DNA from: Actinomycetes bacterium
GTDB lineage: Bacteria; Actinomycetota; Acidimicrobiia; Acidimicrobiales; RAAP-2
DNA length: 64,000 nt
Assembly: GCA_021806045.1 (NCBI GenBank)
Contig: JAJZDI010000009.1
Span: forward strand, 1-64,000
Reading direction: 5' to 3'
Below are positions 834 through 54,033 of this stretch, one piece after another. Every line of letters begins with the position of its first letter. Positions within the stretch are counted from its first letter, which is position 1. The notes below the pieces were generated by a model. The model had not been told where the DNA came from. It worked only from the letters and a program-made list of their open reading frames with translations, and made no database searches. The position numbers were made by a program, and so were the translations under genes.

Positions 834-1631
834 GTGACGACGGAAGGGTCCACCAGCGGGGCGACGGCGCCAACGGTCGAGTTCGACTTCACCGGGAAGG
901 TGGCGGTGGTGACCGGGGCCGGGGGCGGGATCGGCCAGGCCTACGCCGAGGCCCTGGCGGCAGCGGGGGCCGCCGTCCTCGTGGCCGACATCGACGACGA
1001 CCGTGCGGCCGCCGTCGCGGCGGGGATTCGGGACGGGGGCGGTAGCGCTGCGTCGTGCCGTGTCGACGTGGCCGATCCGGCATCGGCGGAGGCGATGGCC
1101 GCCGCCGCCCTCGACTCGTTCGGCTCGCTCCACTACCTGGTCAACAACGCCGCCATCTTCGGTGGCATGCAGCTCGACCTGTTGCTCACCGTCGACTGGG
1201 CGTACCTGGAACGGTTCCTGTCGGTGAACCTGCTGGGCGCGCTCACCTGCACCCGTGCGTGTTACCGGGCCATGCGGACCTCGGGTGGCGGCGCCGTCGT
1301 CAACCAGTCATCGACGGCGGCCTACCTGTACGCGGGCTTCTACGGGCTGGCCAAGGCCGGCGTGAACTCCCTGACCCAGCAGCTGGCCCACGAACTGGGT
1401 GGGCAGTCGATCCGGGTCAACGCCATCGCACCCGGGCCCATCGACACGGAGGCGGCCCGGACGGTGGTGCCCGAGGAGTTCATGACGCCGATCATCAATT
1501 CACTGGCCATCAAGCGGCAGGGCTCGCCCGCCGACCTGGTCGGCATGTGCCTGTTCCTCCTGTCGGACCGGGCATCGTGGATCACCGGCCAGATCTTCAA
1601 CGTGGACGGTGGGCAGGTGTTCCGGGCGTGA
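834..1631 (+). CDS. Short-chain dehydrogenase/reductase (SDR)
   Basis: 265 residues. NAD(P)-dependent oxidoreductase of the classical SDR family: TGAGGGIG cofactor loop near residue 23, NNAA motif, catalytic serine in NQSSTAAY and the catalytic YGLAK (Y-x3-K), then the usual IAPGPIDTEA segment. Probably oxidises or reduces a hydroxyl/keto group on an intermediate of the surrounding acyl-CoA/aromatic pathway. GTG codons at 831 and 834 are both possible; 834 is preferred because GAGG lies about 8 bases upstream. The stop overlaps the start of the enoyl-CoA hydratase (GTGA). The upstream gap is an 18-bp tandem repeat that reads open in this frame, so an N-terminal extension cannot be fully excluded. 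Confidence 0.9.
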   Translation: MTTEGSTSGATAPTVEFDFTGKVAVVTGAGGGIGQAYAEALAAAGAAVLVADIDDDRAAAVAAGIRDGGGSAASCRVDVADPASAEAMAAAALDSFGSLHYLVNNAAIFGGMQLDLLLTVDWAYLERFLSVNLLGALTCTRACYRAMRTSGGGAVVNQSSTAAYLYAGFYGLAKAGVNSLTQQLAHELGGQSIRVNAIAPGPIDTEAARTVVPEEFMTPIINSLAIKRQGSPADLVGMCLFLLSDRASWITGQIFNVDGGQVFRA

Positions 1632-2521
1632 CCGGCGGCGTGCGAGGCGAGCCGGTCGGCGGCGTGCGGGGCGAGGCGGTCGCCGGTCGGCCAGGGGGCG
1701 CCGGTATGCGGGATGAGGCTGTCCCCGGTCGGCCAGTGGGCGCTCGCGATGTGCCCCACCGGGTCACGGTGGCGGATCGCGGAGCGGTCCGCGTCATCAC
1801 ACTCGACCGCCCCGAGGCCCGCAACGCGTTCGATGCGGCGATGTACCGTGCCCTCCTCGAGGCCCTCGTGTCCGCCCGCATCGACCCCGGGGTCCGTGTC
1901 GCCGTGCTCACGGGAGCGGCGCCGGCATTCAGTGCCGGCCAGGACCTCCACGAGATGGCGGCGCTGGCCACCGGGACCGGTGCCCCTGGGTTGGTCACCG
2001 GCTTCCCGGCACTCCTGGACGAGCTGGCGACCACCGATCTACCGATCGTCGGTGCCGTGAACGGAGCCGCCGTCGGGCTCGGTCTGACGATGCTTCCCTA
2101 CCTCGACGTTGTCCTCGTGGCTCAGGGGGCGCGTGCCCGGGTCCCCTTCGCCGAGCTCGGTGTCCCTCCTGAGGCGGCCAGCAGCCTGCTGCTCGCACGC
2201 CGGCTGGGCTGGTCCCGGGCGGCCCATGCGTTGCTGTGCTCGGCGTGGATCTCCGCCGAGGAGATGGTGGAGGGCGGCCTGGCTCTGCGGGCGAGCCCCC
2301 CGATGTCGCTGGTGGACGACGCCGTGGAGATCGCATCGGCGATGGCGGGCGCCAGCCGGTCAGCGCTGGGGGGCATCAAGAGGCTGATGCGGGCGGCTGA
2401 GGCGCAGGACATCGCGGCGGCCAGGCGCCGCGAGGACGAGGCGTTCGCGCTGCTGTTCGCCGATCCGGAACGCAATCCCGGCGCGAGCCTCGCCAGCGGG
2501 CTCGGCGGAGGCCCGTCGTGA
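1628..2521 (+). CDS. Enoyl-CoA hydratase/isomerase family protein
   Basis: 297 residues with a crotonase fold. The oxyanion-hole segments are AFSAGQDLH and VNGAAVGLG, and PPEAASS carries a glutamate at the position of the hydratase catalytic Glu144-type residue. Acts on a CoA thioester by hydration or isomerisation in the cytoplasm. The first 40 or so residues are a poorly conserved Gly/Arg/Val stretch coded by 24-bp imperfect repeats (1634-1681), and an ATG at 1706 is an alternative start; the GTG at 1628 is chosen because it overlaps the SDR stop. Downstream it overlaps the LLM gene by four bases. Confidence 0.88.
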   Translation: MTGGVRGEPVGGVRGEAVAGRPGGAGMRDEAVPGRPVGARDVPHRVTVADRGAVRVITLDRPEARNAFDAAMYRALLEALVSARIDPGVRVAVLTGAAPAFSAGQDLHEMAALATGTGAPGLVTGFPALLDELATTDLPIVGAVNGAAVGLGLTMLPYLDVVLVAQGARARVPFAELGVPPEAASSLLLARRLGWSRAAHALLCSAWISAEEMVEGGLALRASPPMSLVDDAVEIASAMAGASRSALGGIKRLMRAAEAQDIAAARRREDEAFALLFADPERNPGASLASGLGGGPS

Positions 2522-3429
2522 AGCTCGGGGTGACGTCGTTCCTCACCGATCGGTCGATGCCGCCGGACCTCCTGGCCGTCGAGGTCGAGGCGCGGGGGTT
2601 CGTGTCGCTGTTCCTTCCCGAGCACACCCACCTGCCCGTGCGGGGAGCCGTCCCGCCCTCTGTGGTCGACGGCGTGTCGCTCGAGGACTACCGGCGTGGG
2701 CTCGATCCCCTCGTCGCCCTGGCCACCGCCGCCCCGGTCACCCGCCGGCTCCGGCTGGGCACCGGCGTGTGCCTGGTGGCCCAGCACGACCCCATCGTGC
2801 TGGCGAAGCAGGTGGCCACCCTCGACCACCTCTCCGGTGGCCGGTTCGATCTGGGCATCGGCTTCGGCTGGAACCGGGCCGAGGCGGAGGACCACGGCGT
2901 GGACTTCGCCGACAGGCATGGTCTGGCCGAGGAGAAGGTCCGCTGCATGCAGGCGCTGTGGGCCGACGACGAGGCGGAGTATCACGGTGACCGTGTCGAT
3001 CTGCCCGCCTCGTTCAGCTGGCCGAAGCCCGTCCAACGCGCCGGCTCAGGCACGGGTGGGACGGGGCGCCCCGGGGTACCCGTGCTGGTGGGCGGGGGCC
3101 CCACCCCGTCGGTGTTCGACGCGGTCGTCGGGTACGGGTGTGGCTGGATGCCGATCGGCGGTTCGGGGATCGGCGGCGCCCTGCCGGAGCTGGAACGTCG
3201 GTGGGCCGGCGCCGGTCGAGCCGGCGCCCGTCCACGGGTGGTGCCCTTCGGCACGGTGCCGACCACGGAGAAGCTCGAGTATTTCGCTGAGATCGGGATC
3301 GACGAGGTCGTTCTCCGCCTGCCGTCAGGTGGACGCGATGCGATGATGGCCGGGTTGGACGAGCTGGCCGCCTTCGTGGAGCGGTTCGACGACGATCGGG
3401 CGCCGCTGGGGGAGGGTGCAGATCGATGA
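2518..3429 (+). CDS. LLM-class F420-dependent oxidoreductase
   Basis: 303 residues of the luciferase-like monooxygenase TIM-barrel family. Seen: a strand-1 start KLGVTSF, the FLPEHTHLPV segment near residue 36, LRLGTGVCLVAQHDP, KQVATLDHLSGGRFDLGIGFGWNR and the VLVGGG phosphate-binding segment. These are typical of the actinobacterial F420-binding subgroup, which oxidises or reduces secondary alcohols, enoyl groups or xenobiotics; substrate unknown. GTG start overlaps the hydratase stop, and its own stop overlaps the thioesterase ATG, so it is translationally coupled on both sides. Confidence 0.88.
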   Translation: MKLGVTSFLTDRSMPPDLLAVEVEARGFVSLFLPEHTHLPVRGAVPPSVVDGVSLEDYRRGLDPLVALATAAPVTRRLRLGTGVCLVAQHDPIVLAKQVATLDHLSGGRFDLGIGFGWNRAEAEDHGVDFADRHGLAEEKVRCMQALWADDEAEYHGDRVDLPASFSWPKPVQRAGSGTGGTGRPGVPVLVGGGPTPSVFDAVVGYGCGWMPIGGSGIGGALPELERRWAGAGRAGARPRVVPFGTVPTTEKLEYFAEIGIDEVVLRLPSGGRDAMMAGLDELAAFVERFDDDRAPLGEGADR

Positions 3430-43473: not shown

Positions 43474-45579
43474 TCAGATGGCGATCCCGATGATCGGCTT
43501 GTTCAGCGTCACGGCGCCGAGGGAGCCCTGGTAGGCGGCATCACCGAAGGCGAACACGCCGCCGTCGGAGGCGGCCAGCCAGTATCCCATGCCGTCCGGG
43601 GATGCAACCATGCCCACGATCGGCTTGTTGAGGGTCAGTGCGACGGTCGAGCCGTGGAAGGCGGCATCGCCGAACGAGAACACCCCGCCGTCGGAGGCAA
43701 CTAGCCAGTAGCCGTTGCCGTCAAGCGTCGGCGCCATGCCGACGACCGGCTTGTTCAGGGTCATGGCACCGGTCGAGCCGCGGAAGACGGCGTCGCCGTA
43801 GGAGAAGACGCCGCCGTCGGAGGCGACCAGCCAGTACCCTTTGCCGTCGGGCGTGGTTGCCATGCCGACGACCGGCCTGTTCAGGTGCAGCGCGTCGGCG
43901 GACCCGTAGAAGTGGGCGTCGCCGAAGGAGAACACGCCGCCGTCGGAGGCAACCAGCCAGTACCCCTTGCCGTCGGGCGTGGCGGCCATGCCGACGATGG
44001 GCGCCTTCAGCGCGACGTTCGCCATCGAGCCGTAGTCGGAGGCTCCGCCGAACGCATCGACGGCCCCGGAGGATGACACGAGCCAGTACCCGTCCGCGGA
44101 GGTATCCGCTGCCAGCCCGACGATCGGGCTGATGAGCGCCTGGCCACCTGCAGAACCCTGGTAGGACGCCTGCCCGAACGAGAACACGCCTCCGTCCGAG
44201 GCGGCCATCACGTAGCCGTTGAACTTCGCGCCGGCTTCGGCCGGTAGCACGGCCATGCCGTTGACATCGGGTGCAGGGCCGGACAGCGCCAGGTCCTGAC
44301 TCGCTGTGTAGGCGGGTGTGGCCGTCTCGGTACCGGTCACCACGGCGAGTTTGCCGGTGGACGTGCCGTAGTTGACGATGAGGTTCCCGCCCTTCGCGTA
44401 TGCGATCGACGCGATCGGTCCGGCGAAGGTGATCGGAGACGCGCTGGACGTCAGGGGCGTGCCAACCGTGTCTTTTGCGAGTCCCGAGTAGAAGTAGAGG
44501 GAGCTGCCTGCAGCGACCGCCACGTGGTTGCCGTCAGGAGCGACCGCGGTCGAGACGACGGAACCGGAGCTCGCGCCAGCGATCGCCGTGGACGACAGGA
44601 CGGACGGGCTCATCGGGTTCGAGAGGTCGAGGACGGCGAATCCCGTACGGGTGACGGTGACGGCCCTCGTCGTGGTGGTCGGGCTGAAGGCCATGCCGCC
44701 GGTTCCGTAGTCGCTGCTCCCGTTGTAGCCGTAGGCGAACATCGGGTCGGACACCGTGCCGGCCACCTTCACATACGGCGACCCGACGCCGGTGACGACG
44801 GCGATCGTGTTGTCGCTGGCGTCCATGAGCAAGCCGACGTAGTTGCCGCTCGCCACTTCCGACTGGCTGATCACGACGCCGTCGTAGGTGGTGGCGTTGC
44901 CCGGTGCTTCGATCCAACCGGGCTGATGAGGCTGGCCGGCCTGGTTGAGGCCTGGGGATTGCACGGCAGTGTTGACGACGTAGGTACTCCCGCTGCGGAC
45001 GAGCGCGATCGCACCCTGGGAGTCAGCGGTTGCCAGTCCGGCCTTGCCGTCGGGCGTGATGGCCACACCGTCGTTGTACGAGTGGTAGCCAGAGCCACCC
45101 TCGGCAGTGAAGTTGCTGACGTCGATCGGGGTGCCGGCCGTCGGTGAAGTGAGGGGCGACGTGATGACGTCGATCGTTCCCGATTTCGTCGCTTCGAGGG
45201 CAACTGAACCATCGGGAGCGATGGCCGAACCAACGGCTCCGTCGGGCACCGACACGGTGGTGGCGCCGGTCGGAACCCCACCTGAGACGGGTCCGGCGAC
45301 GTCGACCGAAGTCTTGGAGGTCGGCACGACGGCGATCGAGGCCACTCCTGCCGGGAGGGCGTGCAGGTCGATGCGCGGGGCAGACGTAGCGTCGTGGCTG
45401 CTCAGGCGGTGCACCTGCTGGCCGTTCGAGACCCCTGCGGCTCCGGCGGTCGCTGCCGTGCCGAGCGCGAGCGCACCGGCGGCGAGCACCGCCGTGGTGG
45501 TCGACAACAGCCTCCGAGGGAGCTGCGAGCGGCGGCCTGGCGGGTGGTTGGTATACACGGGATCGTCCGTTCCTCTCAT
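43474..45579 (-). CDS. Large secreted repeat protein (beta-propeller-like)
   Basis: 701 residues. Signal peptide after a basic PGRRSQLPRRLL (hydrophobic VLAAGALALGTAATAGAAG). Residues about 60-420 resemble YVTN/lactonase-type propeller blades (AIAPDGSVALEAT, GVAITPDGKAGLATAD). The C-terminal 250 residues are six repeats of about 42 residues with YWLVASDGGVFSFGDA and VVGMATTPDGKG, which occur in secreted actinobacterial, especially acidimicrobial, proteins. Function unknown; probably cell-surface. The same repeat module ends the 50-54 kb protein. ATG 45579 is chosen as it gives a clean signal peptide. Confidence 0.8.
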   Translation of the reverse strand: MRGTDDPVYTNHPPGRRSQLPRRLLSTTTAVLAAGALALGTAATAGAAGVSNGQQVHRLSSHDATSAPRIDLHALPAGVASIAVVPTSKTSVDVAGPVSGGVPTGATTVSVPDGAVGSAIAPDGSVALEATKSGTIDVITSPLTSPTAGTPIDVSNFTAEGGSGYHSYNDGVAITPDGKAGLATADSQGAIALVRSGSTYVVNTAVQSPGLNQAGQPHQPGWIEAPGNATTYDGVVISQSEVASGNYVGLLMDASDNTIAVVTGVGSPYVKVAGTVSDPMFAYGYNGSSDYGTGGMAFSPTTTTRAVTVTRTGFAVLDLSNPMSPSVLSSTAIAGASSGSVVSTAVAPDGNHVAVAAGSSLYFYSGLAKDTVGTPLTSSASPITFAGPIASIAYAKGGNLIVNYGTSTGKLAVVTGTETATPAYTASQDLALSGPAPDVNGMAVLPAEAGAKFNGYVMAASDGGVFSFGQASYQGSAGGQALISPIVGLAADTSADGYWLVSSSGAVDAFGGASDYGSMANVALKAPIVGMAATPDGKGYWLVASDGGVFSFGDAHFYGSADALHLNRPVVGMATTPDGKGYWLVASDGGVFSYGDAVFRGSTGAMTLNKPVVGMAPTLDGNGYWLVASDGGVFSFGDAAFHGSTVALTLNKPIVGMVASPDGMGYWLAASDGGVFAFGDAAYQGSLGAVTLNKPIIGIAI

Positions 45580-45900
45580 CGTTGTCGAGGTCCTGAACAG
45601 CTTCAGGTGAGCGAAGGCACTGTCGAGGTCCGTCACCTGACGCGTGGATCCCGGCGGCCGGTCCTGCGGCCCCGGGATGTGGGCGACCCTACCCGAATGG
45701 TGTCGCAAGATGTATGTCACTCCGTTGGAGGCGGGTGGTGGAGTTTGGGTTGAGTTACGTGGGGTCAGTTGCGCCTGGTTGCCGTGGCGACGCTGTGCGG
45801 TGCCGTATGCCTTCACCGTTCCGATCGGATGTCCGTCGCGCGCTGGGCGTCTGCGGGGACGTGTTGTTCGGGGAGCCGACCGAAGCAGGGAGGTGAAGGC

Positions 45901-45918: not shown

Positions 45919-45957
45919 CAGGCCGCTACCGTTGGCAGGCCGGGCGTGCCAGGCGAA

Positions 45958-46033
45958 GGGGCAGTAGCTCAGTGGTCAGAGCAGGGGACTCATAATCCCT
46001 CGGTCGCAGGTTCGATCCCTGCCTGCCCCACCA
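45958..46033 (+). tRNA. tRNA-Met (CAT), elongator type
   Basis: 76 nt. Acceptor GGGGCAG/CTGCCCC, anticodon loop CTCATAA giving CAT, T-arm GCAGG-TTCGATC-CCTGC, discriminator A and encoded CCA. The first acceptor pair is matched and the anticodon stem lacks three G:C pairs, so it is not the initiator. A tRNA-Ile2 with lysidine is a less likely alternative. Confidence 0.93.
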
Positions 46034-46184
46034 ACGTGACGTCGCTCGACATCGGAACCGAGAACTGCCGGTCATCGATGACTGTTTGAGGTCCTCCGAG
46101 AGGTCGAGGGACATGTGGCCGAGAGGGAGCGCGCTGCCGGCTTTCAGCGGGGGCGACCGAACGATCCAGGGGTAGCCTGAGGCC

Positions 46185-46783
46185 ATGCGGCGGAATCTGG
46201 TGGGCCTTCTCGTGATCGTGTGCGGCGCGGTCGCCCTCGCGGCTTGCACCGCCTCTGCCCCGACAGCGACCGGCTCGCCCGGGTTGGCCTCGACGGCCCA
46301 CGCCACCACCACTACCACTACCTCGGCGCCACCGGCGCCAGGCGCCGCGCCGTGCACGGCAAACGAGCTCCGTGCCCTCGGCGGGGGCCGCGAAGGCGGG
46401 GGGCTCCAGACGGCCGCTGGCACGGTGGAGATCGAGAACATCGGATCGGCTCCGTGTGTTCTCGACGGGTCCCCGAGCGCCATCTCGCTCGTCGGCACCA
46501 GCGGGACGGTTCCGGCCTTGCCATCACCTACCAGCCCGCGACCGCCCGGACGGCCCTGACTCTCCACCCGGGTGACGTGGCCGACGCCGACCTGAACTGG
46601 GCCAACTGGTGCCACCGCGACCCGGGGCCCCTGCGGGTCCGCCTGACCCTTCCGGGCGGCGCGGGCACGGTTGAGAGCCCGTTCGACGGACCGCCGAACT
46701 ACGACTACGTGCCCGGTTGCATCGCCCCGGGGCGGCCCTCGACCGTCATGTTCACCGGTTGGCTCGCCGGCGCGCCCGGCTAG
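46185..46783 (+). pseudogene. DUF4232 lipoprotein with a one-base frameshift
   Basis: Frame 1 (46185-46559) gives a lipoprotein signal VGLLVIVCGAVALAAC, Thr/Pro linker and the start of a DUF4232 domain (CTANELRAL, IENIGSAPCVLDGSP). The rest of the domain (ITYQPATARTALTLHPGDVADADLNWANW... to APG) continues in another frame to 46783. Comparison with the copy at 48452-48715 shows one base missing between 46513 and 46520; restoring it gives a 199-residue protein. Either a recent pseudogene or a sequencing error. DUF4232 proteins are exported actinobacterial proteins of unknown function. Confidence 0.8.
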
Positions 46784-47073
46784 CGGCGAGCTCGGGTACG
46801 AGGGCACGGGCTCACCCCCTGTGGATCGAGGCCAAGCTCTTACGTAGGTAGATCCGTTCTGGTGGACCATGTCGGGTGGATCGATTACTGGGGCCTGGGG
46901 ACGGCGGCTGACACCACCGTCCGCCGGTGCGCCGACGATGCAAGCTCACGTGCAGCAATTCGGCGCGGTTGGGCGTGTGGATAGCTCGAAGGTCGTGATC
47001 GAGACTCAGAACGAGACCGATCAGTACCCACTTCCCAATCGCCGCACGAGCCTGCCAGAGGGGGCGAGAACAG

Positions 47074-47577
47074 ATGGGCGCAGCTGACGAGGCGAGCTTC
47101 GATGAGTTCTTCCGGAAGTCGAGCCGACGCCTCCTGGGTCAGGCATACCTGCTCACTGCAGACGTGGCACGGTCCCAGGACCTGACGCAGGAAGCATTCG
47201 AGCGGGCATGGCGCCGTTGGGACACCGTGTCCACCTATGACGACCCTGAGGCATGGGTGCGGCGCATCCTCCACAACCTGTGCATCAGCGACTGGCGGAA
47301 GCGGGTCAGGCGTTCCGACCGAAGAAGTGCCCCGGCCCGGGTAGTCCCGCCACCGGGAGAGGATCACCTCGTACTTCTCGAGGCATTGCGCTCCCTGACT
47401 CCGGACCACGCGAAGGCACTCGTCCTCCACGACGGACTCGGCTTCACCGCCGCTCAAATAGCGGTCGACATGTCCGTTCCGGAGGGGACCGTGAGGTCGT
47501 GGATCGCCCGGGCCCGAGCGCATGCAGCCTCTGCACTCATCGACCTTGGACACAGCTATTCAGGAGACGTCCGATGA
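47074..47577 (+). CDS. ECF sigma factor (SigE-family type)
   Basis: 167 residues. Region 2: LLGQAYLLTADVARSQDLTQEAFERAWRRW; region 4: LRSLTPDHAKALVLHDGLGFTAAQIAVDMSVPEGTVRSWIARAR. Resembles the actinobacterial SigE-family ECF group. AGAGGGGG lies nine bases before the ATG. The next gene, overlapping by ATGA, is a membrane protein with an external DUF4232 domain, in the place where an anti-sigma factor normally sits. The 290-bp gap upstream holds no gene; no promoter stands out. Confidence 0.92.
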   Translation: MGAADEASFDEFFRKSSRRLLGQAYLLTADVARSQDLTQEAFERAWRRWDTVSTYDDPEAWVRRILHNLCISDWRKRVRRSDRRSAPARVVPPPGEDHLVLLEALRSLTPDHAKALVLHDGLGFTAAQIAVDMSVPEGTVRSWIARARAHAASALIDLGHSYSGDVR

Positions 47578-48359
47578 CGAGCGAACACGATCATGACATC
47601 GTCGGCTTGACGATGCGAGGAGTCATGAACCAAGGGGAAAGCGTGAGCTGGGACATGACGCCGGAAGCCGTCCGGCGGAACGCACGAGGTGGATGGATGC
47701 GAGTGCTACCGAAGACCTCGCACCTCGCAGTTGGCGCCGGCGTGGCCGCGGCGCTCATCGCCGGCCTGTTGGTCGGACAGGCCGGCACCGCTCCTTCCCA
47801 ACGCCAGCCGGCCACGAAGCCGACAGTGGCGGTACGACCCTCGGCAACTCCATCCACCAGCTCGACCTCGACCGCTCCCACGACGTCTCCGTCCGGCGCT
47901 CCGGCCCGCTGCACTGCAGCGCACCTCACCGTCTCGCTCGGTCCCGGGCAGGGTGCTACCCAGAACTGGGTGTATCCGTTGCTCTTCGTCAACTCTGGGC
48001 CGTCGCCATGCTCGCTCCAGGGATTTCCCGGGGTCTCCTTCGTCGACGCGTCGGGCGCCCAGATCGGATCCCCTGCCGCCGAGGGCCGTGCAGGCGAAGT
48101 GCCGAGCCCCGGGAACGGTCCCGTCGTCATCGGGCCGGGGAAGTCCGCACAGGCGGTCGTCGTGGAGGGGATCGTCAAGGATCTCGTCAGCGCCGGTCAA
48201 CCGTGTTCTCCCGTCACCGCAGCAGCGCTGAAGGTGTACCCGCCCGATTCGACCACGGCCTTCATCGTCCGACCCACGGGTCCCCGGGCCAGCTTCGTGC
48301 TCCAGGTGTGCACCGTCGGGAGTGGGAGGGCGCAGGTATCGCAGGTGCTGTCCCGCTGA
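47574..48359 (+). CDS. Membrane-anchored DUF4232 protein, candidate regulator of the sigma factor
   Basis: 261 residues. Cytoplasmic N-terminus of about 50 residues without the zinc anti-sigma HxxxCxxC motif; one membrane helix (LAVGAGVAAALIAGLLVGQAG); a Thr/Ser/Pro linker; and an outer DUF4232 domain starting CTAAHLTVSLGPGQGATQNW, with a second conserved cysteine in PSPCSLQGFPG. Overlaps the sigma factor by ATGA, so co-translated. By position it may act as an anti-sigma or sensor, but the N-terminus is not a recognised anti-sigma domain; this is inference. Confidence 0.85.
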   Translation: MTSEHDHDIVGLTMRGVMNQGESVSWDMTPEAVRRNARGGWMRVLPKTSHLAVGAGVAAALIAGLLVGQAGTAPSQRQPATKPTVAVRPSATPSTSSTSTAPTTSPSGAPARCTAAHLTVSLGPGQGATQNWVYPLLFVNSGPSPCSLQGFPGVSFVDASGAQIGSPAAEGRAGEVPSPGNGPVVIGPGKSAQAVVVEGIVKDLVSAGQPCSPVTAAALKVYPPDSTTAFIVRPTGPRASFVLQVCTVGSGRAQVSQVLSR

Positions 48360-48451
48360 CGGTGGAATAGCCGGCGGACGAATCGCATGTCCGGCGGTGC
48401 GACCGCGTCGCGTCCGTTGCGTGGGGGGACAGAGCATGCGGGGTACACGGC

Positions 48452-48715
48452 GACGGGTCCCCGCGTGCCCTCTCGCTCGTCGGGTCCGGCGGGACGGCTC
48501 CGACCCATGCCGTCACCTACCAGCCCTCGGCCGCCCGGACGGTCCTGACGCTCCACCCGGGTGCTGTGGCCGACGCCGATCTGAACTGGGTCAACTGGTA
48601 CCACGGCGACCTGGGGCCCCAGCGGGTCCGTCTGACCCTGCCGGGCGGCGCGGGCACGGTAGAGAGCCCGTTCGACGGACCGCCAACAACGTGCCCGGGT
48701 GCACCGCCCCGGTGA
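48452..48715 (+). pseudogene. Truncated DUF4232 gene remnant
   Basis: An open stretch, closely similar in DNA to the 3' half of the 46.2-46.8 kb gene, reads DGSPRALSLVGSGG, HAVTYQPSAARTVLTLHPG, ADADLNWVNW and RVRLTLPGGAGTVESPFDGPP. The signal peptide and first half of the domain are missing. A small deletion after FDGPP shifts the frame, so the conserved ending (PGCIAPGRPSTVMFTGW in the other copy) is lost. The 370 bases to the next gene hold nothing recognised. Confidence 0.82.
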
Positions 48716-49087
48716 GGGGGCCCCGATCTGCTGGTCCATACCCGAGACCGAGACGGACGTTCCTCGGCGGTATGCCATCGGTGGGACCCACCGGCAAGGA
48801 GCCGGGATTCCCGTGCATTCGGTCGCCACCACGAGACGTTCGGCACCCATCCGAGGAGCCAGAAGGCCCGGCGTTCCGCCCGGCCAGGACTCCCTGGCCA
48901 CCTGAAACCCCACCACCTAAGGTGTCATCCGCCAATGCTGCGGGAGATCCGGTGCTGCTGGAGACCCGGTCGGTCGGGCTGGTACGGCGGCGTCGACGCC
49001 GCCGATGACCACACGACGCCGAGATTGTCATCGCACCAGCTGCTCGCTCCCGGGAATGCCGGGCACCCGGAACGGGTTGCTGCAGGC

Positions 49088-49375
49088 ATGGTGAGAGCAA
49101 CGTGGAACGGCGCCGTGATCGCCGAGAGCGATGAGACCGTGATCGTCGAAGGGAACCACTACTTCCCGGCCTCGTCCGTCAGGAGCGAGTACCTGTCAGG
49201 GAGCGAGACGCACTCGGTCTGCCCGTGGAAGGGGACGGCCAGCTACTACAGCCTGGTCGTCGACGGCAAGGAGAACCCCGACGCCGCCTGGTACTACCCG
49301 GAGCCCAAGGACGCGGCGAAGGAGATCACCGGGCACATCGCCTTCTGGCGGGGGGTCACCGTCTCGGAGGCCTAG
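49088..49375 (+). CDS. DUF427 domain protein
   Basis: 95 residues: the entire DUF427 fold, MVRATWNGAVIAESDETVIVEGNHYFP, then HSVCPWKGTASYYSLVVDGK and WYYPEPKDAAKEITGHIAFWRGV. Small cytoplasmic beta-tent protein, function unknown; widespread in actinobacteria and cyanobacteria. ATG 49088 fits the family start; only AGG precedes it. Upstream in-frame codons extend to 48935 but are not conserved. Confidence 0.9.
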   Translation: MVRATWNGAVIAESDETVIVEGNHYFPASSVRSEYLSGSETHSVCPWKGTASYYSLVVDGKENPDAAWYYPEPKDAAKEITGHIAFWRGVTVSEA

Positions 49376-49379
49376 CCTC

Positions 49380-50148
49380 CGGTAGGTAGGGGCCTGGCCT
49401 GGTCGACCAACCACAGCGATCGGTCGACAGTCGACGGGTCCTCCTGGCTGTGGATCATCGAAGCACGGAAGCCGATCGGTGCGCGGGCCGTACCGCTACG
49501 TCCACCAGCACGCCGGGCGACGGCCGGCAGAGCGATCCGGTGCTCACCATCTCGCCACGGGCGCCGGACGCCGTGCGGATCGGCACGACGATCTCCCAGG
49601 CGTAGGCAGCGGCCGGGATCACGTTCGACGTGACCGGCGACGGATTGTACGACCGCGAGTCGATCCTCCCGGGCTTCGAGCTGCACATCGGGGCGATAAC
49701 CCCGTCAGCTGTGTCGGCGCTGCGATGGGGCTTCGCCCGGGATCGGTCAAGCAGGCGGTCGAGACGCGTGACGGGTTCGAGCTCGGCCTGCGGGTGCGCT
49801 GAGGTGCCACCGCGCCGGTCTGCTCACTGGTTGTCGATCGGCTCCCAGACGGGGAGCGCCCACGCGCTCGTGGGCGGGTCCGATCCGTTCCCCACCGACT
49901 GATACTGCCGACTCCGGCGGACGGGTGACGCACGTAGGCAGACGGGTGATGCGCGTACTTGTCCGTCTCGTTGGTCATCGTTGGCCATCGCATGGGTGCG
50001 TGTGAAGGAGGCGGCTCGAAGTTGTCCGGCCGCCCATGGGATCGCGCCAACCTCGTCGTTACCGTTCATCGAAGGCCCCTCGCCCGCGTGCACATGCGCA
50101 CCGAGACCGGCGGGAGGTGTCCATGGAGGCGAACGGAAGGTGGCAGCC
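49380..50148 (+). other. Gene-poor stretch with degenerate coding signal
   Basis: No intact gene recognised in about 770 bases. One plus-strand reading looks coding over about 49605-49700 (ITFDVTGDGLYDRESILPGF), but has an in-frame TAG just upstream, and the G/C-rich third-position signal moves to another frame near 49725-49802. This suggests a decayed gene. The family is not recognised. Confidence 0.3.
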
Positions 50149-53100
50149 ATGAGCCGACACAGCGGCATCGACGGTGCAGGCGCGATCGGGAGCAGGCGGC
50201 GGCGCCGATCCCGCATGCTGGCCGGAATGCTGCTGGGCCTGCCGAGCCTGGCCGCCTTGGCCGCCGGTGGGACCCCGGCGCAGGCGGCGACGGAGACGTT
50301 CACCTTCACCACGCCGGGGGAGACGGCGTGGACCGTTCCCGCCGGCGCGACCTCACTGCAGGTGACAGTGGTGGGTGCGGCCGGTTCGCCGTTCAACGGC
50401 GGTGGAAGTCCTTCGGCACCATCGGGTTCCGGCGCGGATGTGCAGGCCGTCGTGCCGGTGCCGTCCCAGCCCACGTTGTACATCGAGGTGGGCGGCACGA
50501 ACGGGGTCAATGGCGGCGGAATCTCGGCAGCCGCGGCCAACGGCGGCGGTGCATCCGACATCCAGACGTGCTCGGTGGCGGTACCGACCTGTGCCGACAC
50601 GGCTGTCCCCGGTACCGACCCTCGGCTGGTGGTGGCGGGTGGAGGCGGTGGCGGCGGTGAGGACCCGAACGGTGTCGCCACCGGTGGTGGTCCTGGCGGC
50701 AATGCGGGCACTGCCGGCTCGGTCGTGACCTCGGGCAGCGGCGGAGCCGGCGTCGACGTGCCGCCTGGTGGGACAGGGGGGCCCTCGGGTTACACGCAGA
50801 CCACCGGTACCGCAGGCGCAGTCGGGCCGGGCAGTCCCGACTGCACGACGGGAGCCGGCGGCGCGGGCCTGCCGGGTGCCGGCGGCGCCGGCGGGGATGA
50901 GAACGGTGCCAACAGCGGCGGCGGTGGTGGTGGCGGCTGGGTCGGTGGTTCAGGAGGTGGGACCGGCAGCGGGGTCACCGGGTGTGGCTACTCAACGGGC
51001 GCCGGCGGCGGTGGCGGCGCTGGCCTGAGCTACATCGAGAGCGCTGCCACTGCGTTCTCGGCAGGGCCGGCCATCGGCATCCCCGCCGAAGTGACGATCA
51101 CGGTGACGTTCCCGCCGGCCATCACGTCGGCCGCGTCGACGACGTTCACCACCGGTGCGGCGGGCTCGTTCACGGTGACGACCACCGGTTCGCCGACGCC
51201 TGCCATCGGCGAGAGCGGACCGCTCCCCACAGGCGTCACGTTCGTCGACAACGGAAACGGAACGGCCACCCTGTCCGGCACCCCGGCAACGGGGACCGAG
51301 GGGACGTACCCCATCACCATCACGGCTGCCAACGGTGTCGGCCCGTCGGTCAGCCAGAACTTCGTCCTCACCGTCGACCAGGCGCCGGCCATCACGTCGG
51401 CGGCGTCGACGACGTTCACCACCGGGTCGGCAGGCACGTTCACGGTGACGGCGACCGGCTCGCCGACGCCGTCGTTCGCTGAATCGGGCACCCTGCCCTC
51501 GGGCGTCACGTTCACCGACAACGGCGACGGGACGGCCACCCTGGCCGGTACCCCGGCGGCGGGCACGGGGGGCTCCTACACGATCACCATCGTCGCCAGC
51601 AACGGGGCTGGCTCGTCGGCCACCCAGACGTTCACGTTGACCGTCGACGAGCCACCGGCCATCACGTCGGCCTCGTCGACGACGTTCACCGCGGGGTCGG
51701 CAGGCACCTTCACAGTGACGGCCACCGGGTTCCCGACCCCGTCGTTGGGTGAATCGGGAACGCTCCCCACCGGTGTCAACTTCACCGACAACGGCAACGG
51801 GACGGCCACCCTGGCCGGCACGCCGGCAACGGGGACCGAGGGAACGTACCCCATCACCATTACGGCGACCAACGGCATCGGCCCGTCGGCCGGCCAGAGC
51901 TTCACCCTCACCGTCGACCAGGCACCGGCCATCACGTCGGCGGCGTCGACGACGTTCACCGCGGGGACGGCAGGCACCTTCACGGTGACGGCGACGGGCA
52001 ACCCGACACCTTCCCTGGCCGAGAGCGGAGCCCTGCCCTCGGGCGTCACCTTCATCGACAACGGCAACGGGACGGCCACCCTGGCCGGTACGCCAGCAAC
52101 GGGGACGGAGGGTGCCCACGTGCTCACCATCGTCGCCAGCAACGGGGCGGGCTCGTCGGCCACCCAGACGTTCACGTTGACCATCGACCAGGCACCGACC
52201 ATCACGTCGGCTGCCTCGAGGACGTTCACCACCGGGTCGGCGGGTACCTTCACGGTGACGGCTACCGGGTTCCCGGCGCCGTCGCTGGGTGAATCGGGTG
52301 CGCTCCCAACCGGCGTCACCTTCACCGACAACGGCAACGGGACGGCCACCCTGGCCGGCACCCCGGCGGCGGGTACGGGCGGCACCTACACGGTCACCAT
52401 CGTCGCCAGCAACGGGGCGGGCTCGTCGGCCACCCAGACGTTCACGTTGGCTATCGACCAGGCGCCGGCCGTATCGTCGGCTGCCTCGACGACGTTCACC
52501 ACCGGGTCGGCGGGCACCTTCACGGTGACGGCAACCGGGTTCCCGGCGGCGTCGCTGGGTGAATCGGGAACGCTCCCAACCGGCGTCACCTTCACCGACA
52601 ACGGCAACGGGACGGCCACCCTGGCCGGCACCCCGGCGAGCGGGACCGGGGGGACATACCCCATCACCATCACGGCGACCAACGGCGTCGGCTCCCCGGC
52701 CAACCAGAGCTTCACCCTCACCGTCGACCAGCCACCGGCCATCACGTCGGCTCCCTCGACGACCTTCACCGCGGGGACGGCGGGCACCTTCACGTTGAGG
52801 GCAACCGGGTTCCCAACGCCTGCGCTGGGTGAATCGGGAACGCTCCCCACCGGCGTCACCTTCACCGACAACGGCAACGGGACGGCCACCCTGGCCGGCA
52901 CCCCGGCGACCGGGACCGGGGGGACACACGTGCTCACCTTCATCGCCGGCAACGGGTCGGGCTCGTCGGCCACCCAGACGTTCACGTTGACCATCGACGC
53001 GGCGCCAGCCATCACCAGCGCCCCATCGGTGGTGTTCACGATCGGCATGTCCGGCTCGTTCACGGTGACGACCACCGGGTTCCCGGCACCGACATCGAGC

Positions 53101-54033
53101 GAATCAGGTGCCCTCCCCTCGGGTGTCACCTTCACCGACAACGGCAACGGGACAGCCACACTGGCCGGCACGCCGGCGGTCGGCGCCAGCGGAACCTACC
53201 CACTGTCCCTCACCGCAACGAACGGTGCCGGTACCGCGGCGACGCAGGCGTTCACCTTGACGGTGGATCCGAAGGGCGGCTTCGTGGTCGCAAGTTCGGA
53301 TGGCGAGGCCGCCGCGTTCGGTGGCGCCAGCAGCCACGGATCGTTCGCACCGGGCGCCGGCGTGCACGACGTGGTCGGCGTCGCGTCCACGCCCGACGGT
53401 GGCGGCTACTGGTTGGCCGGTGCTGACGGTGGTGTGTTCTCTTTCGGTGACGCGCCCTTCCGGGGTTCGCTGCCCGGCGCCGGGATCACCCCCGCGGCCC
53501 CGATCGTCGGCATCGCGTCGACGGCCGACGGTGGTGGCTACTGGTTGGTCGGGGCGGACGGCGGCATCTTCGCCTTCGGCGATGCCCGGTACTTCGGATC
53601 ACTGCCGGGAGCCGGGATCACCCCCGCTGCCCCGGTCGTGGGCATGGCCGTCACCCCCGACGGTGGCGGCTACTGGCTGGTCGGCGCCGACGGTGGCGTG
53701 TTCTCCTTCGGCGACGCCACGTTCCACGGGGCGGCGAGCACGTACCACCTGCAGAAGCCCATCGTCTCGATCACCACCGACTGGCAGACCGGCGGTTACT
53801 GGCTGGCAGCTGCGGACGGCGGCGTGTTCTCGTTCCATGCGCCGTTCGAGGGATCGGTGGCCGGTCTGGCCTCCTCCGATGTGGTGGGCATGGCGTCGAC
53901 CCCCGACGCGCACGGCTACTGGCTGGTGACAGCGGACGGCGAGGTGTTCCCCCTCGGCGATGCCGGGACGAGCGCAGGCCTGCGATCCGATGGCCTCGCC
54001 AACACGGTCGGCATCTCCTCGAGCGCACCATGA
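50149..54033 (+). CDS. Giant secreted protein: Gly-rich domain, eight Ig-like repeats, propeller-like repeats
   Basis: 1294 residues. Signal peptide RRRRRSRMLAGMLLGLPSLAALAAG...AQA; a Gly-rich surface domain (about 45-320, TFTTPGETAWTVPAGATSLQV then GGGGGG blocks); eight 90-residue putative Ig-like repeats (PAITSAASTTFTTGSAGTFTV ... SATQTFTLTVD), each exactly 270 bp from 51116 to about 53275; then six repeats of 40-44 residues (YWLVGADGGVFSFGDA). Probably extracellular adhesin or wall-associated. ATG with GGAAGG eight bases upstream. No LPxTG-type anchor seen. Confidence 0.87.
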   Translation: MSRHSGIDGAGAIGSRRRRRSRMLAGMLLGLPSLAALAAGGTPAQAATETFTFTTPGETAWTVPAGATSLQVTVVGAAGSPFNGGGSPSAPSGSGADVQAVVPVPSQPTLYIEVGGTNGVNGGGISAAAANGGGASDIQTCSVAVPTCADTAVPGTDPRLVVAGGGGGGGEDPNGVATGGGPGGNAGTAGSVVTSGSGGAGVDVPPGGTGGPSGYTQTTGTAGAVGPGSPDCTTGAGGAGLPGAGGAGGDENGANSGGGGGGGWVGGSGGGTGSGVTGCGYSTGAGGGGGAGLSYIESAATAFSAGPAIGIPAEVTITVTFPPAITSAASTTFTTGAAGSFTVTTTGSPTPAIGESGPLPTGVTFVDNGNGTATLSGTPATGTEGTYPITITAANGVGPSVSQNFVLTVDQAPAITSAASTTFTTGSAGTFTVTATGSPTPSFAESGTLPSGVTFTDNGDGTATLAGTPAAGTGGSYTITIVASNGAGSSATQTFTLTVDEPPAITSASSTTFTAGSAGTFTVTATGFPTPSLGESGTLPTGVNFTDNGNGTATLAGTPATGTEGTYPITITATNGIGPSAGQSFTLTVDQAPAITSAASTTFTAGTAGTFTVTATGNPTPSLAESGALPSGVTFIDNGNGTATLAGTPATGTEGAHVLTIVASNGAGSSATQTFTLTIDQAPTITSAASRTFTTGSAGTFTVTATGFPAPSLGESGALPTGVTFTDNGNGTATLAGTPAAGTGGTYTVTIVASNGAGSSATQTFTLAIDQAPAVSSAASTTFTTGSAGTFTVTATGFPAASLGESGTLPTGVTFTDNGNGTATLAGTPASGTGGTYPITITATNGVGSPANQSFTLTVDQPPAITSAPSTTFTAGTAGTFTLRATGFPTPALGESGTLPTGVTFTDNGNGTATLAGTPATGTGGTHVLTFIAGNGSGSSATQTFTLTIDAAPAITSAPSVVFTIGMSGSFTVTTTGFPAPTSSESGALPSGVTFTDNGNGTATLAGTPAVGASGTYPLSLTATNGAGTAATQAFTLTVDPKGGFVVASSDGEAAAFGGASSHGSFAPGAGVHDVVGVASTPDGGGYWLAGADGGVFSFGDAPFRGSLPGAGITPAAPIVGIASTADGGGYWLVGADGGIFAFGDARYFGSLPGAGITPAAPVVGMAVTPDGGGYWLVGADGGVFSFGDATFHGAASTYHLQKPIVSITTDWQTGGYWLAAADGGVFSFHAPFEGSVAGLASSDVVGMASTPDAHGYWLVTADGEVFPLGDAGTSAGLRSDGLANTVGISSSAP
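51116..53275 (+). repeat. Eight tandem 270-bp Ig-like repeats without indels
   Basis: The unit start (CATCACGTCGG or a variant) recurs at 51120, 51390, 51660, 51930, 52200, 52470, 52740 and 53010, exactly 270 bp apart. Long stretches such as GACAACGGCAACGGGACGGC are identical between units. Confidence 0.97.

Follow-up and report, generated by a model that had tools for sequence, protein, structure and literature searches.

Anti-sigma factors that sit in the membrane and vary in their outer domain are already known, RsgI being the example. Clostridium thermocellum carries several SigI/RsgI pairs in which a short cytoplasmic N-terminus is joined by one helix to a divergent outer sensor, and a construct of residues 1-54 has been used for RsgI6 (PMC12203970). 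In Mycobacteriales the ECF sigma factor SigD is paired with RsdA, a membrane-anchored anti-sigma factor that is released by intramembrane proteolysis and whose role has been shown by experiment (PMC11175481). Membrane-anchored anti-sigma factors outside class I also include CnrY (class II), whose two helices wrap round the sigma factor (PMC7406223, PMC8103513), and RsbN (class III). The locus described here lies in the window, meaning the whole 64,000-nucleotide stretch of actinobacterial DNA that was analysed, and comprises the following features, all on the forward strand.

46185..46783, forward strand: DUF4232 lipoprotein gene with a 1-nt frameshift near 46517, its first frame ending at 46559
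46951..46978, forward strand: predicted autoregulatory ECF promoter TGCAGCA-N15-GCGTGT, matching 11/13, 95 nt before the sigma start codon
47074..47577, forward strand: ECF sigma factor of 167 aa with regions 2 and 4 (Pfam/NCBIfam; tree with genome G022)
47574-48359, forward strand: one-helix membrane protein of 261 aa with a C-terminal DUF4232 domain (ORF and Pfam)
47574..47723, forward strand: its cytoplasmic N-terminus, residues 1-50, a putative short anti-sigma segment (profile of sister partners)
47724..47789, forward strand: its single transmembrane helix, approximately residues 51-72 (hydropathy 2.0)
47790..47909, forward strand: its Pro/Thr/Ser-rich extracytoplasmic linker (sequence)
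47910..48287, forward strand: its DUF4232 ectodomain, a putative sensor, residues 113-238 (PF14016, 79.1 bits against a gathering cut-off of 27 bits), the gene ending at 48359
About 48422-48717, forward strand: truncated DUF4232 copy, a pseudogene fragment with no signal peptide

Around the module, a tRNA-Met (CAT) at 45958-46033 stands just upstream of the broken lipoprotein gene and is overlain by a long, likely spurious reverse-strand ORF (45926-46870). A DUF427 (NTP_transf_9) gene follows downstream (48935-49375), and then a large exported-looking protein (49981-54033) that contains eight Ig-like repeats of the He_PIG type and ends in a block of GYWLVGADGGVFSFGDA repeats. A second large protein, on the reverse strand at 43474-45816, has the same GYWLVASDGGVFSFGDA-type repeats and no confident Pfam family.

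ORFs, Pfam and hydropathy bear out the description in the earlier note of an ECF sigma gene overlapping, by ATGA, the gene of a one-helix DUF4232 membrane protein. The sigma ORF scores above the Pfam cut-offs for Sigma70_r2 (45.1 bits) and Sigma70_r4_2 (50.7 bits) and meets the ECF model TIGR02937 (57.2 bits against a cut-off of 42.9); its top NCBIfam model is SigE-fam_strep (TIGR02983), yet the score of 116 bits lies below the cut-off of 141.55. The partner starts at 47574, across the sigma stop codon, and has one hydrophobic stretch only, with its core at residues 50-68. It resembles RsgI in its short cytoplasmic N-terminus, single helix and divergent outer domain. SigI, however, is not an ECF factor of the window's family and belongs to another phylum, the outer domains of RsgI are mostly sugar-related, and no RsgI-type model in Pfam or NCBIfam matches the partner. 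SigD/RsdA is similar in pairing an actinobacterial ECF sigma factor with a membrane-anchored protein, but RsdA has a long disordered outer region, and the likeness is one of layout rather than demonstrated homology.

Residues 1-50 of the partner contain no Cys and match no anti-sigma model in Pfam or NCBIfam, as had been claimed of the cytoplasmic part. We rejected a class I anti-sigma factor (ASDI/ZAS), which is recognised by a cytoplasmic domain of about 100 residues with a recognisable model, and by Hx3Cx2C in zinc types, since this 50-residue N-terminus lacks Cys and has no model match. The length and single helix of the partner fit the class II pattern of CnrY, with no PDB profile match, and the size of the CnrY helices would fit a 50-residue N-terminus (PMC7406223, PMC8103513). 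The proposed role of the partner would resemble that of CnrY and RsbN, while its N-terminal profile matches neither an anti-sigma profile from the PDB nor the RsbN-BldN structure. Weak matches to the CU044_5270 and SCO2400 families of NCBIfam extend over the N-terminus and helix of several related partners, all of them far below the curated cut-offs, and the window's partner matches neither. Structure prediction of the partner as a single chain gave a pLDDT of 43, and a sequence search of the PDB with DUF4232 found no solved relative.

The sigma/partner layout is conserved. The best relative of the partner elsewhere is encoded in a genome of another genus of the same family (G022), where it also stands directly 3' of a sigma gene; the two sigma factors share 69% identity and the two partners 41%, and the sigma factors pair in the sigma tree with 97% support. 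The search for relatives in genome contigs gave only one further relative. For a wider comparison, the order and phylum were searched by sigma similarity alone, yielding 62 test loci with the window's own locus counted. As a caveat, the five sigma factors that seeded the search profile were taken from loci where partners had been seen beforehand, although selection itself was by sigma similarity only. A one-helix protein with a short cytoplasmic N-terminus, starting at the sigma stop, directly follows the sigma gene in 59 of these 62 loci; the same strict rule is passed by 1 of 55 control genes (Fisher p about 2e-28), and contig ends account for two of the three loci that fail. Sigma followed by a one-helix partner is therefore a layout that is general across the phylum, and the lack of conserved adjacency that the earlier note named as grounds for refutation did not occur. 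The window's particular pair is absent from a same-genus genome that is 88% complete (G001), and a search of viral contigs found no relatives of the sigma factor.

Within this layout, the inner part of the partner is kept. Most partners (48 of 61) start at an offset of -4, -8 or -11 nt, and the N-termini measure 35-58 aa except for one misplaced call. Besides this length, the partners retain the single helix, an amphipathic stretch at the beginning and an Arg-rich one ahead of the membrane. Against a profile built from sister partners that carry different outer domains, the window's N-terminus outscores each of 200 shuffles, and only 1 of 1761 decoys matches or beats it; a wide-set profile of distant partners rates it poorly, 132 of 1761 decoys being as good. 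The N-terminal profile carries over among partners whose outer domains are unrelated. When all pairs are taken, N-terminal similarity is correlated with sigma distance (r 0.20, 0/2000 permutations), but the correlation is only weak over pairs with different outer domains (r 0.07, 137/2000 permutations).

The outer part, by comparison, changes completely. The outer domains of the 59 partners include 27 Pfam families and form 31 similarity clusters, with DUF4232 in four, Kelch and BNR in three each, serpin and PASTA in two each and the others in one each; SecDF head, PQQ propeller and YkuD also occur. Sigma homologues in the same bacterial family adjoin one-helix proteins bearing PASTA, serpin, a SecDF P1 head or a beta-propeller. 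The window and G022 sigma factors lie inside a 96%-supported clade whose partners carry DUF4232, PASTA, SecDF-head and unknown outer types, so that a single sigma clade has seen its outer domains exchanged. As relatives keep the two-gene layout and differ in outer domain, DUF4232 is one interchangeable outer domain of many. It recurs on sigma partners in four other genomes (G022, G219, G521 and G591), extending to other families, and on contig C31 of the window's genome, and the DUF4232 partners of G521 and G591 fall at separate places on the sigma tree.

The same genome holds further pairs. On C31 (78035-79451; L097, 1036-2452) a second sigma/one-helix pair has an outer part of PASTA plus DUF4232 and a distant sigma factor, at 60.9 bits to profile A1. 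A pair with a serpin outer domain lies on C29 (about 1100-3100; L042/L165), has a perfect TGCAACC-N15-GCGTGT promoter and is present in G001 as well. Most DUF4232 proteins are free lipoproteins with no sigma gene nearby. At four loci of family f73 (L133, L134, L138 and L139), an ECF sigma gene has DUF4232 genes no more than about 1 kb away, some of them tandem, but the arrangement differs from that of the window's pair.

A bipartite motif, TGCAACC-N15-GCGTGT, is common to the regions upstream of the sigma genes. It is perfect (13/13) in 11 of the 62 loci and reaches at least 11/13 in 23, where 2.0 are expected; 19 of those 23 have the identical 15-nt spacer. The window's site scores 11/13, which none of 60 shuffles equals, and is the sole exact match to TGCARC-N17-CGTGT within the 64 kb. 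In seven relatives' genomes that carry this sigma type, eight of nine exact TGCAAC-N16-GCGTGT sites stand directly before such sigma genes and the ninth before a non-sigma ORF. The window's genome has four exact TGCARC sites, two before sigma operons (C4 and C29) and two inside other open frames. This placement before sigma operons supports autoregulation. A one-mismatch scan of the same genome returned fewer sites than the reversed control (26 vs 115) and gives no basis for deducing a wider regulon, and an order-wide scan for exact sites gave 36 matches, mostly chance, with 4 of 30 examined standing before sigma genes. A sister sigma clade (L051-L054 and L062; families f27 and f18) seemingly shares the -10 (CGTGT) but has another -35 (TGTCCCCC), at a spacer of 17; its partners share one outer-domain cluster.

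The best explanation of these observations, and a probable one, is in our view an ECF/anti-sigma pair that regulates its own expression and whose sensor domain is interchangeable. Sigma would be co-translated with its one-helix membrane partner, whose short cytoplasmic N-terminus most likely binds sigma and keeps it inactive at the membrane, while the outer domain, here DUF4232, would sense something in the envelope. A signal would then inactivate the partner, probably by intramembrane proteolysis, and the freed sigma factor would transcribe its own operon from TGCARC-N16-GCGTGT in a positive autoregulatory loop. That the N-terminus may hold sigma and proteolysis may release it is suggested by analogy with RsgI (PMC12203970) and RsdA (PMC11175481). 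Intramembrane (M50) proteases are present in the window's genome and likewise in 14 of 14 control genomes. The data themselves show the gene layout with its overlap, its conservation, the exchange of outer domains and the enrichment of the motif before these operons. Counting against the explanation are the lack of any recognised anti-sigma domain in Pfam, NCBIfam or PDB profiles, the weak correlation among pairs with different outer domains, the poor score under the wide-set profile and the absence of the pair from G001.

The main rival takes the membrane protein as the product rather than the inhibitor, with sigma controlled otherwise, for instance at transcription, and serving to express its own surface protein. 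In its favour, the best promoter sites in carrier genomes stand almost only before these operons, with no wider regulon visible, several outer domains are effector-like (serpin, L,D-transpeptidase) rather than sensor-like, and some ECF39 sigma factors such as S. coelicolor SigE are listed in a review as transcription-controlled (PMC8999054). That the N-terminus and one-helix topology persist through complete changes of the outer part nevertheless points to a cytoplasmic task beside sigma, and an autoregulated sigma factor with nothing to inhibit it should become locked in the on state. On balance we regard this account as unlikely, and note that an output role and an anti-sigma pair can both hold.

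The DUF4232 lipoprotein gene and its copy, which flank the pair, led the earlier note to propose that exported DUF4232 proteins act as ligands or decoys in an envelope-sensing module; intact free DUF4232 lipoproteins elsewhere in the genome, on C11 and C9, could be cited for the same idea. The sigma/membrane-protein module itself is upheld by its conserved layout, but the ligand or decoy role is not. In the upstream gene, the frame that stops at 46559 holds a lipobox signal (LAAC) together with one half of the DUF4232 domain, the remainder lying in another frame to 46783; a 1-nt frameshift is placed near 46517 because the spacing between the copies shifts by one base there. The downstream copy, as had been described, is truncated and closely similar in DNA, with 91% identity over 180 nt and 88% over 266 nt, a match far beyond chance (E 7e-87). 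Homologues in two other genomes are also disrupted: that of G003 (71% identity) likewise has frameshifted, split reading frames, and that of G021 (89% identity over 196 nt) is internally deleted. Every clear copy of this lipoprotein found is thus broken, and the breaks are of different kinds and at different places, which makes a shared assembly error unlikely. The G003 and G021 copies have no sigma gene nearby, the flanking lipoprotein gene is not preceded by the shared sigma promoter, and other sigma partners have no DUF4232 at all. A ligand or decoy function is accordingly very improbable; the flanking copies are relics in decay that play no working part in the switch. Of a locus said to be still duplicating and decaying, the decay is evident but ongoing duplication is not: the window copies differ from each other by 12%, much as the window copy differs from that of G021 (11%), and the duplication accordingly looks old.

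That the two genes are unrelated chance neighbours, for which only the absence of a recognised anti-sigma domain could be adduced, can practically be dismissed given an overlapping gene order kept so much more often than among control genes.

Three features of this system seem new: a short segment, matched by none of the models, in an ECF family; outer domains exchanged over a very wide range; and a promoter concentrated on its own operon. Part of this may be already described. Among the papers searched, none names DUF4232. These results define a family of sigma/partner pairs that swap the sensor but retain the cytoplasmic segment and the promoter. For DUF4232, to which sequence searches find no solved relative, they suggest that it serves in some proteins as a sensor domain, a role that can be tested. 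The promoter motif allows regulon prediction, and the 50-residue segment is a candidate minimal anti-sigma domain. It is possible, though on the doubtful side, that the system is a closed loop, in which a short anti-sigma segment of an unrecognised type serves a large actinobacterial ECF family and the operon itself is the main or only target. If so, the membrane protein would be inhibitor, sensor and main output in one, a means of amplifying one surface protein on demand, with an outer domain that is exchangeable among serpin, PASTA, DUF4232 and propeller.
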